Assembly (NCBI RefSeq): GCF_024346135.1
Contig: NZ_JAGQCJ010000004.1
Location: 62,001-126,000 of the forward strand
Direction: 5' to 3'
DNA: 64,000 nucleotides
Source of the DNA: Cyanobium sp. CH-040
GTDB taxonomy: Bacteria; Cyanobacteriota; Cyanobacteriia; PCC-6307; Cyanobiaceae
The notes beneath the pieces were generated by a model, which saw only the letters and a program-made list of their open reading frames with translations, was not told the DNA's origin and did not search any database. This document shows, in pieces, positions 35,748-38,529 of this stretch (its first letter is position 1; each line of letters begins with the position of its first letter). Both the position numbers and the translations under genes were made by a program.

Positions 35748-36424
35748 GCGGCGGCGGCTCGGCGCTGAGACTCCAGATAAGCAAACACGCTCTTGTCGCC
35801 CACGTCGGCCGCGGCCGGCATCGGGAACTTGCGCAGGCACAGCACCAGCAGCAGCACCGCCTGCAGCGCCAGCAGCCGGCCCGCCAGCGCCGGCGCCAGC
35901 AGCCCGCTCAGGTGGCCCAGCAGGGCTGCCGGCAGCAGCAGGGTCACGCCGATGGCCTCGGGGCGGCGGAAGCAGAAGAACTCCTTGAAGCCGATCCCGG
36001 CCAGGGCGGCGAACAGCGGCCCGACGGCCCAGACCCAGCGTCCGTCGGCCTGCAGGCTGGTGGCCATGGCCTCCGGGCCGGCCCACAGGCAGAGCCCCAC
36101 CAGACCGGCGCAGCCCAGCAGCCAGAACAGCTGCAGCGCCCGGTGCAGAGGCCGCAGGTAGATGTGGATCCAATGCAGCGCCAGGCCCACGCCAACGGCC
36201 AGGGGCAGCAGCCACGGCCACAGCCACTCACCGCCCAGCCAGTGCCACTGGGCCAGCAGCGCCAGCTGGGCAATGGCCGCGGCCGTGAGGCTGAGGCGGT
36301 AGGCCAGCACCTCCCGCCGGTCGGCGGCTGTGATCGTGAACGGCCCGTACAGCCCCTGGTGCACCGGCTCGGCCGCCGCCCGGGCGGCCGTTTCACTCAG
36401 GGCGTCGGGGCTGGGATCCGGCAT
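35744..36424 (-). CDS. DUF2301 membrane protein
   Basis: The 226-residue protein has about six hydrophobic segments. It carries the conserved WIHIYLRPLHRALQLFWLLG and GFKEFFCFRRPEAIGVTLLLP segments of DUF2301, a cyanobacterial and plastid family. Its ATG lies inside the end of the GST-like gene (32-nt overlap) and its stop overlaps uup, so the three are coupled. The function is unknown. Confidence 0.85.
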   Translation of the reverse strand: MPDPSPDALSETAARAAAEPVHQGLYGPFTITAADRREVLAYRLSLTAAAIAQLALLAQWHWLGGEWLWPWLLPLAVGVGLALHWIHIYLRPLHRALQLFWLLGCAGLVGLCLWAGPEAMATSLQADGRWVWAVGPLFAALAGIGFKEFFCFRRPEAIGVTLLLPAALLGHLSGLLAPALAGRLLALQAVLLLVLCLRKFPMPAAADVGDKSVFAYLESQRRAAAA

Positions 36425-37403
36425 CGGCGGCGGCCATCGGACAGCTGCCCACCAGTGTGGCCAGCGCCGGGCCCGCCGGCACGATGCCCGAGGGATGGAG
36501 CGGAAACAGGGCCCCGAAGTAGTCGCGGCGCCAGGCCTCGGGACAGCAGGTGTCCGCCACCCCCGGCAGCTGGTGGAAGCGGCTCCGCCAGTGCCAGAGC
36601 GCCGGGAACTGCCACAGGGGCCGGCGGCTGACGCCGAACAGGGGCGCGTAGACGAGTTCCAGCCGGATCAGGGTGGGGAAGAGCTGCACGTCGGCGAGGC
36701 TTGGATGGGGGCCGCTGAGCCAGCCCGGCTCCCCTGCGCCGGCGCCGCTCGCCGCCAGCGCCTGCTCCACGGCATCGAGGGTGGCGAACAGCTCGGCTTC
36801 GGCGCTCTCGTAGGCGGCCTGGCTGCGGGCGAAGCCGCAGCGGTACACCCCGTCGTTGACGCCGGTCTGCAGCCGCTCGCGCCAGGCGGCCGTGGCCGCG
36901 CGCTGCCCGGGAGGATCGAGGTCGAAATCCCTGCCGGCCGGCCAGCGGTTGAGCAGCTCGATCAGGCGGGCGCTCTCACCCACCACCACCTGCCGCCGCC
37001 GGCGGTCGTAGAGCACGGGCACGGTGGCGCGGCTGCCGGGCGGAGCGCCGCAGCGCCCGTAGAGCTCGGCGAGGGTGGAGCAGCCCTCGAACGGTTCACC
37101 GAACCGCCAGCGGCCCGCCCGCGGATCCGGTTCCACCACCACCAGCGCGACCGTGGCCTGCAGCCGGCGCAGTGCCCACACCAGCCAGGCGCGATGGGCC
37201 CAGGGGCAGCTGCGGCCCACGATCACCACATGGGCGTCCGCCACGCCGGCATCGTCCGGCAGCGCCAGGGCCTCGGCGAAGGCCGCGGGCGGGCGGCGGT
37301 AGTTTCCCTGCGCATCGGCCGGCCCCAGTCCGTTCATCAGCTGCAGCCACTGCCAGTGCCAGAGGTGGCGGGCACTGCGCACCAGCCAGGGTGGAGGGAG
37401 CAC
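36393..37403 (-). CDS. Glutathione S-transferase-like protein (glutathionyl-hydroquinone reductase type)
   Basis: From GTG 37403 the protein has 336 residues. After an N-terminal extension with WQWLQLMNGLGPADAQGNYRRP it has VVIVGRSCPWAHRAW, with Cys66 in the CPWAHR motif of Xi-class/omega-like GSTs. VPVLYDRRRRQVVVGESARLI and an alpha-helical C-domain with NDGVYRCGFA follow. These enzymes reduce glutathionyl-hydroquinones. A start at ATG 37487 is possible. Confidence 0.85.
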   Translation of the reverse strand: MLPPPWLVRSARHLWHWQWLQLMNGLGPADAQGNYRRPPAAFAEALALPDDAGVADAHVVIVGRSCPWAHRAWLVWALRRLQATVALVVVEPDPRAGRWRFGEPFEGCSTLAELYGRCGAPPGSRATVPVLYDRRRRQVVVGESARLIELLNRWPAGRDFDLDPPGQRAATAAWRERLQTGVNDGVYRCGFARSQAAYESAEAELFATLDAVEQALAASGAGAGEPGWLSGPHPSLADVQLFPTLIRLELVYAPLFGVSRRPLWQFPALWHWRSRFHQLPGVADTCCPEAWRRDYFGALFPLHPSGIVPAGPALATLVGSCPMAAADAGSQPRRPE

Positions 37404-37499
37404 GATGGAAGGCGTTGCGTTCCAATCTCGGACGATTGGACCGGAAAATCCAGCACCGTCCGTCACCGTCCGCGCGGCGGCGATCATCACGCCGCATTC

Positions 37500-37537
37500 A
37501 TGAACACCGTGCAGCGATGAACACCGTGCAGCGATGA
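37500..37537 (+). promoter_or_regulatory. Two tandem mini-ORFs coupled to aspartoacylase
   Basis: The 17-nt unit ATGAACACCGTGCAGCG occurs twice in direct tandem (37500-37516 and 37517-37533). It is followed immediately by ATGACC, the start of the next gene. Each copy reads ATG AAC ACC GTG CAG CGA TGA, a six-codon ORF whose TGA overlaps the next ATG by the ATGA arrangement. Re-initiation through these could set the translation rate of the downstream gene. Translation of the mini-ORFs is not shown. Confidence 0.6.
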
Positions 37538-38529
37538 CCGCCACGATGCCCCCGGCCGCGGTGCTGGTGGTGGCCGGCACCCATGGCAATGAGCGCAACG
37601 CGCCCTGGCTGCTGCAGCACTGGCAGCGTCATCCCGATCAGCTCGCCGATGCGGGGCTGGCCCTGCAGCTGGTGCTGGGCAACCCCTCCGCCCACGCCGC
37701 CAACCGGCGCTATCTGGAGCGCGATCTCAACCGCTGTTTCGCCCCTGCACTGCTGGAGGACCCCGCCGCCACCGGAGCGGATCTGGAGCGGGCCCGCGAA
37801 CTGCTGACGCTGCATGGCCGGCAGGGCCTCGAACCCTGCGCTGTGGCCCTGGATCTGCACAGCACCACCAGCGCCATGGGCAATTCACTCGTGGTGTACG
37901 GGCGGCGTCCCGCCGATCTGGCTCTGGCGGCCGGCATCCAGGCACGGCTGGGGTTGCCGGTGTACCTGCACGAAGCCGATGCCCGGCAGAACGGGTTTCT
38001 GGTGGAGTGCTGGCCCTGCGGCCTGGTGATCGAGGTGGGCCCGGTGCCCCAGGGGGTGATCCAGGCCCCGATCTGCCGCCAGACCCAGCTGGCGCTGGAG
38101 GGAACCCTTGCCGTTCTGGCGGATGCCCGGGCCGGGCGGCTGCGTCTGCCGCCCGGCCTCGTGGTGCATCGCCACCTGGGCAGCCTCGATCTGCCCCGGG
38201 CTGCGGACGGCACCCCTCTGGCCTGCATCCATCCGCGACTGCAGCACCGCGACTGGCATTCCCTGCGCCCGGAGGATCCGCTGTTCCTGGATCGGGCCGG
38301 CCGCAGCGTCACGCTTGGCTCGGCGCTGAGATCCGGCTCGGCCCCGGAGGCGCTGGCTCAGGGCTCAGGGCCCGATCCCCTGGTGCCGGTGTTCATCAAT
38401 GAGGCGGCCTACGGCGAGAAGGGCATCGCCCTGAGCCTCACCCGTCGGGAGCGCTGGCCCGTGCAGCCGGCTTTGGCGGAGGCTCTGGAGCAGCTGGCGG
38501 CAGGCCTGGCGCTGCGCCCGGCTCACTGA
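37534..38529 (+). CDS. Aspartoacylase-family (N-acyl-amino-acid hydrolase) protein
   Basis: The 331-residue protein belongs to the AstE/AspA zinc carboxypeptidase-like family. Zinc ligands are His17 and Glu20 in AGTHGNE and His109 in [21 protein letters not shown] holds the substrate-binding Arg/Asn, and a catalytic-Glu-like [12 protein letters not shown] follows. It should cleave N-acetyl-aspartate or a similar N-acyl amino acid. A gene of this kind near psbA is familiar in picocyanobacteria. The start ATG 37534 follows the two mini-ORFs. Confidence 0.9.

Follow-up and report, generated by a model that had tools for sequence, protein, structure and literature searches.

The window, a stretch of 64,000 nucleotides from the genome of Cyanobium sp. 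CH-040, carries a gene of the aspartoacylase family whose start is preceded immediately by a duplicated 17-nt unit (Table 1). The gene passed the NCBIfam equivalog test for aspartoacylase (PRK02259) with 342.4 bits against a curated cut-off of 180. The ATG at 37534 is its most upstream in-frame ATG, GTG or TTG, and another in-frame ATG lies at 37546. Since the glutathione S-transferase-like neighbour is divergent and its start was placed at 37403, no gene on the same strand lies directly ahead to feed the chain of mini-ORFs in front of the aspartoacylase gene, hereafter the relay, which occupies part of the roughly 130 nt between the divergent genes.

Table 1. Features around the aspartoacylase start, in window coordinates.
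Feature	Position	Strand	Basis
Aspartoacylase-family gene, 331 aa	37534..38529	+	NF002601/PRK02259 equivalog, 342 bits; PF24827, PF04952
Glutathione S-transferase-like gene, divergent; GTG start at 37403 inferred from conservation	36393..37403	-	
Conserved block upstream of the aspartoacylase gene in relatives; probable promoter/operator (inferred)	37423..37454	.	
Exact tandem duplication, 2 x 17-nt unit ATGAACACCGTGCAGCG	37500..37533	+	Sequence, Tandem Repeats Finder
Mini-ORF 1, MNTVQR; TGA at 37518-37520 overlaps the ATG of mini-ORF 2 (ATGA)	37500..37520	+	Sequence, chain walk
Mini-ORF 2, MNTVQR; TGA at 37535-37537 overlaps the ATG of the gene (ATGA)	37517..37537	+	Sequence, chain walk

The original prediction described an exact 17-nt duplication that encodes MNTVQR twice, with each TGA overlapping the following ATG and the third ATG serving as the gene start, and both the sequence and Tandem Repeats Finder (period 17, 2.2 copies, 100% matches, score 76) confirm this description. 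The two copies of ATGAACACCGTGCAGCG are followed directly by ATGACC, so that array and motif together cover 37500-37539. Each mini-ORF has six codons and its TGA has two bases in common with the next ATG, which is the geometry of the NTGA class, where a stop overlaps the next start. A GTG at 37509, in the same frame within the unit, provides an alternative start inside each mini-ORF, and inspection by eye shows nothing like a Shine-Dalgarno sequence ahead of the three ATGs. It was further suggested that ribosomes would have to re-initiate twice because each start opens a new frame; this holds for a ribosome that begins at the first ATG, but direct loading on the second or the third ATG is also possible. 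A search of the 2.9-Mb assembly for the 21-nt unit at up to three mismatches returned the two window copies and no third place. The rare trait of the window is the exact double unit, a single chained mini-ORF being common. The identity of the copies makes the array look young, or it may have been homogenised.

The conserved block between the aspartoacylase and the glutathione S-transferase-like gene reads approximately GAATCTGCGTCAGGCTGG...GAAATCCAG in many family members and AATCTCGGAC...GGAAAATCCAGC in the window, and might serve both genes as a promoter or as the target of a regulator. Between 37300 and 37700 a promoter scan gave no match to the sigma-70 consensus and a terminator scan gave 0 terminator-like sites, while the RNA fold of 37456-37590 was weaker than that of most shuffles (z = +1.36), pointing to no special structure there. 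The intrinsic terminator (37300-37700) and the strong leader structure (37456-37590) that would mark a leader-peptide attenuator were thus not found.

Start regions of orthologues and of a second gene

The aspartoacylase gene is present in 13 of 13 genomes of the genus, the window's own included, and in 364 of the 400 genomes of the family scan. For the comparison of starts, 80 aspartoacylase loci from GTDB species genomes were added to those of the genus and of the family scan; 16 of all these loci lacked the exact GTHGNE motif, and the loci with it gave 74 distinct start regions. An in-frame ATGA start at most 120 nt from the motif was found in 9 of these 74 regions, and an ATG mini-ORF chained to such a start in three, namely the window, Cyanobium sp. 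Prado107 and Cyanobium sp. ATX 6A2; the remaining 71 regions had no ATG mini-ORF chained to an ATGA start. The Prado107 relay, first reached via protein homology and not via a pattern search, occupies the same place as the one in the window and belongs to a gene with 85% protein identity. It consists of ATGAGCATCTCGCAGCC and ATGACCACCCTGCAGCG followed by ATGACCGCG, two 17-nt units in diverged form that encode six codons each (MSISQP and MTTLQR). Both relays span 34 nt with 7 base differences between them, and the spacer just upstream differs by indels. In ATX 6A2 an 8-nt unit, ATGAAGCG, stands before the start and is chained to it by ATGA, with a GTG-started 8-nt unit ahead of it. In the equally close CSSed165cm_191R1 and PLM2.Bin73 (L005/L006; 81% identity) the start is instead repeated in frame as a 12-nt unit (ATGACCGCCGCG/ATGACCGCAACG), which yields two in-frame ATGs and no relay. 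Thus, repeats of 17, 8 and 12 nt occur at the start of one and the same gene.

A single start with unrelated sequence upstream, the outcome that would have spoken against a relay, is found in most of the 74 regions but not in Prado107 and ATX 6A2. Of the two readings offered in the original prediction, compact translational control is a hypothesis taken up below, and the other, in which slippage recently duplicated the start and thereby created a relay, is well supported by the recurring and frame-biased class of arrays described below. Given the diverged relay of Prado107, the event is not solely a last-moment one, although the identical window copies look young or homogenised.

A gene of the glyoxalase family, traced in 42 genomes of one genus with matches in 26, allows a similar comparison. 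Among the best 24 of its loci, the 17 with the motif used were read and 7 were without the motif. Two genomes (G218 and G291) have a single ATGA at the start and zero extra units, and one (G100) has GTGA. In G285 an 11-nt mini-ORF, ATGGCGCTCCC, is chained to the start by ATGA. Two extra 17-nt units are present in G234 (MTLAAP/MTLAVQ) and G180 (MTLATP/MTLAAP), where the first ATGA overlaps the stop of an upstream coding ORF. This is the picture expected if copies of the start were inserted at the junction with the stop-start chain left unbroken.

Arrays at other genes and the effect of spacing

Among the 13 genomes of the genus the pattern ATGA-N13-ATGA-N13-ATGA gave 7 rows at 5 sites in 5 genomes and its reversed control gave 0. 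Each of these five 17-nt arrays runs into a gene-like ORF, in G002 and G012 by way of one further chained short ORF, and outside the ATGA the units agree at 12 or 13 of 13 bases at four sites and at 8 of 13 in Prado107. The longest chain, in G006, opens at the stop of the preceding coding ORF and has four units, MSRHRP and then three times MSHALP, ending at an ORF that begins with MSHG. In G012 three units precede a protein whose N-terminus resembles glucokinase and which, from reading its sequence, we take to be glucokinase-like; in G002 two units are followed by an ORF of 28 codons and this, via ATGA, by a 338-aa ORF, presumably, again by reading, a look-alike of the formylglycine-generating enzyme. 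The window's own genome holds further cases. Two 14-nt MSRAR units lead into a glycosyltransferase-family gene (G000:C13:21922-21953; L220:1501-1532), one 17-nt unit stands before a radical-SAM/TRAM gene (L134), and the start of the CTP synthase gene (L123:14321-16005, minus strand), ATGAGCAAGTTC, has a 14-nt near-copy, ATGAGCAAGGAGCC, ahead of it that forms MSKEP-stop and is chained by ATGA. Arrays of three to four units were found at L137, L160, L161, L342 and L344. Tandem mini-ORF relays built from gene starts may be undescribed, as far as the titles and the openings of abstracts in open-access literature go.

In the wider family, 17-nt ATGA trios occurred in 70 of 400 genomes against 13 of 400 for the reversed control. 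Many of the trios from other parts of the family are built of unrelated units and resemble chance matches; between the units of L143-L151, for instance, only 1 to 6 of 13 bases are alike. For the window itself, chance or an assembly artefact is extremely improbable: one chained mini-ORF is indeed common, since 151 of 522 genes with an NTGA start have a single short ATG or GTG mini-ORF, opening no more than 41 nt upstream, that is chained to this start, but the exact 17-nt duplication, the lack of control matches in the 13 genomes and the related architecture in sister species contradict such an origin. Chained uORFs being favoured genome-wide was likewise rejected on ATG-by-distance statistics for 391 ATGA genes and 869 ATGB genes, as the upstream ATGs of the ATGA genes showed no general 3k+2 excess (27, 50 and 34 for 0, 1 and 2 mod 3). 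With chance single mini-ORFs common and no 3k+2 excess, relays are rare events.

Other repeats were encountered on the way. A six-unit 13-nt tandem array of ATGACTTAC type (G012:C75:5893-5974, L328) reaches no gene; 17-nt units of the ATGAT.TGGCTGT type form chained mini-ORFs at G014:C149:1355-1426 (L171), where the walked chain reached no long ORF; and a long run of imperfect ATGACGACG-type repeats at G001:C1:991142-992600 is probably part of a repetitive protein gene. A variable-gap ATGA pattern was noisy in the 13 genomes and was excluded from the counts.

The dependence on spacing was determined in one fixed set of 80 related genomes at 13, 14, 16, 17 and 20 nt. ATGA trios gave 38 rows at 17 nt (24 genomes), 50 at 14 nt (27), 22 at 13 nt (14), 8 at 16 nt (6 genomes) and 2 at 20 nt (2 genomes), and the reversed-pattern controls gave 2, 7, 1, 1 and 0 rows, respectively. 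The 17-nt rows for the 80 genomes were hand-picked from the 400-genome scan and correspond to 31 sites. An ORF was considered gene-like if it had at least 60 codons and a dicodon coding score above 20, under a model built on 1822 script-called genes from a four-genome sample of 2.06 Mb. By this measure 16 of 31 sites at 17 nt and 24 of 38 at 14 nt lead into a gene-like ORF, compared with 0 of 14 at 13 nt, 0 of 7 at 16 nt and 0 of 2 at 20 nt. For 14 and 17 nt together (40/69) versus 13 and 16 nt together (0/21), Fisher's test gives P = 4.4e-7. Chains were followed past further short ORFs for 3k+2 spacings only, which decides L136 and L140 and without which the 17-nt count would be 14 of 31; with the two sites that need one further ORF dropped, P is 1.4e-6. 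Merging orthologous sites by eye leaves 32/57 versus 0/17 (P = 1.2e-5). In these counts L342, L344 and L166, which fall under the score cut, stand as not gene-like, and L351-L356, L375 and L376, which lie outside the 80 genomes, were left out.

Tandem ATGA repeats of 3k+1 length do occur, one of them six units long, and 0 of 21 reach a gene. Conversely, no gene-like ORF is reached at 29 of the 69 sites with 14- or 17-nt spacing. At 20 nt, also a 3k+2 spacing, there are two rows and no gene, so that frame is not the sole rule and unit length counts too. Nine of the 16 gene-leading sites at 17 nt and 7 of the 24 at 14 nt have a coding ORF upstream whose stop is precisely the first TGA, which places the array within the stop-start overlap of neighbouring genes at those sites; the stop of a coding ORF also precedes two 3k+1 sites (L224 and L321).

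Exact duplications behave in the same direction. In the 2.06-Mb sample, five exact tandem duplications with a period of at least 10 lie at called gene starts (periods 11, 12, 14, 17 and 17, window included), of which three are ATGA-led relays (11, 17 and 17) and the 12- and 14-nt ones are not. The period is 3k+2 in 4 of these 5 versus 4 of 23 between genes (P = 0.015) in a test that omits the "edge" class (6 duplications of period at least 10, three of them 3k+2), and with this class added the figures are 7/11 versus 4/23 (P = 0.016).

As a control for the ATGA itself we used ATGB trios at 17 nt, which matched in 68 of the 80 genomes; most of them look non-repetitive and some are reverse complements of relays. 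From the matches listed, 16 repeat-like places were chosen by eye and 15 were tested, L417 being below the similarity cut. In this by-eye sample among the matches listed, 4 of 15 arrays end at a gene-like ORF, and the comparison with 16 of 31 for ATGA is not significant (P = 0.13). At L408 (G343:C4:106159-106196) the exact 17-nt repeat ATGCCGATCCACCTCTG occurs twice before a 329-codon gene-like ORF and forms five-codon mini-ORFs, each of which joins the next start as TGATG; the final mini-ORF of L421 joins its gene in the same way. Relays may therefore also use a -1 overlap (TGATG), judging from these junctions. At L411 the mini-ORFs overrun the next ATG and at L416 the first and the last ATG are in one frame, and these two cases imply that ATGA is not required for 17-nt duplications of a start.

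Predicted hand-over of ribosomes and its alternatives

We propose, with a probability of roughly 0.6, that tandem duplications of gene starts survive when they are 3k+2 nt long, the copies acting as mini-cistrons that would pass ribosomes on by termination-reinitiation. A stretch beginning at an ATGA start would undergo tandem duplication, and a copy of 3k+2 nt would, barring an internal stop, create a (k+1)-codon ORF terminating at the following ATGA, i.e. six codons for 17 nt. A ribosome coming from any of the three ATGs, or from an upstream gene, would then be delivered to the real start. Because of this delivery a 3k+2 duplication would do little harm and persist, whereas a 3k+1 copy would send ribosomes over the real start in the wrong frame and would tend to be lost. 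What the sequences show directly is the geometry, how it recurs at unrelated genes, the bias in frame and the sharing of relays between sister species. From them we infer initiation on the mini-ORFs with subsequent re-initiation, as well as selective loss of 3k+1 units. Selection against broken chains would be expected to leave such a bias, which is in this sense an indirect sign that ribosomes use these ATGs. Owing to the ATGB result, it is the difference in frame from the 13- and 16-nt arrays that carries the case for a hand-over; the same result takes weight from the relay reading and adds it to the neutral and DNA-level rivals.

The neutral alternative holds that slippage merely duplicated part of an untranslated leader and that the mini-ORFs see no ribosomes. 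Exact copies and a patchy distribution are consistent with this, as are the tandem repeats of many periods found between genes (65 exact ones of period at least 7 in the 2.06-Mb sample) and the ATGB arrays that also reach gene-like ORFs. Untranslated repeats should, however, ignore frame, which is at odds with the contrast between 14 and 17 nt on the one side and 13 and 16 nt on the other, and we regard a purely neutral origin as decidedly unlikely.

At the opposite end, the relay could be a positively selected regulatory device in which the number of units sets expression. In a funnel form three loading sites would serve one start, which would help genes that lack Shine-Dalgarno sequences, and in an attenuator form some ribosomes would be lost at each reinitiation. 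The common relays with diverged unit sequences in sister species argue for such a device, and so do the arrays of three to four units and the single units before the CTP synthase and radical-SAM/TRAM genes of the window's own genome. The arrays are nonetheless patchy among close species, as neutral or nearly neutral events would be, and we consider selection for regulation unlikely. A broader version of the hand-over reading is likewise tentative and rather unlikely: frame-locked start arrays of 14 and 17 nt might constitute an evolvable, quantised translation control, a funnel or a rheostat, for genes without Shine-Dalgarno sequences in this cyanobacterial family. Every copy would then add one mini-cistron, and a change in copy number would leave the relay intact.

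A last alternative places the function in the DNA, with the repeat as a direct-repeat operator for a regulator of the divergent pair or as a mobile micro-element of the MIRU type. Its position in the short divergent intergenic region, adjoining the conserved block, would suit an operator. The absence of the unit, at up to three mismatches, from the rest of the assembly counts against mobility, different genes have different units that are often similar to their own start, and a frame bias would be meaningless for DNA binding; hence, we judge a DNA-level element very improbable.

Relation to known systems

NTGA/ATGA overlaps (-4 nt) with coupling of termination and reinitiation are well described (Huber et al. 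2019, PMC6728339; Brown and Wade 2025, PMC12548453), and according to the latter review a short upstream ORF could bring the ribosome to a gene. The relays share with these systems the stop/start overlap as ATGA and the predicted hand-over of the terminating ribosome, but the cases described there link two adjacent genes, or a gene and a single short ORF (PMC6728339, PMC12548453). In the relays, mini-cistrons five or six codons long follow one another as tandem copies, two to four per array.

Mycobacterial interspersed repetitive units (MIRUs) have units of some tens of base pairs, with tandem copies at senX3-regX3. The window unit has 17 nt, and there is no homologous unit at many loci, since the window unit is not dispersed in its assembly at up to three mismatches and the units of other genes differ. 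PMC12548453 describes MIRUs as insertions at start codons whose small ORF is coupled to the gene at -4 nt, likely with minimal effect on that gene. An inserted unit with a small ORF at -4 nt to the gene is thus a likeness to the relays, by geometry alone; MIRUs are dispersed and apparently mobile in that account, while relay units are mostly 14 or 17 nt and gene-specific. The two-codon minigene of axe-txe (PMC8708949) is another very short upstream ORF that acts in cis on the next gene, but it lies 15 nt from the gene and has a Shine-Dalgarno sequence, in contrast to the 4-nt overlap, the tandem arrangement and the lack of a visible Shine-Dalgarno sequence in the window.

If ribosomes do transit the chains, the relays would represent a natural test of multi-step termination-reinitiation, and because orthologues in related species differ in the count of near-identical steps, the efficiency per step would be measurable. 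The frame bias could in that case be read as a footprint of evolution, suggesting that ribosomes of these cyanobacteria re-initiate at ATGA efficiently enough for 3k+2 insertions at starts to be tolerated. Moreover, start-site annotation could place starts wrongly in such arrays. The array before the glycosyltransferase-family gene of the window's genome (L220) has, in addition to its two units, a GTG-started 14-nt unit ahead and a 15-nt in-frame near-repeat of the gene start behind.
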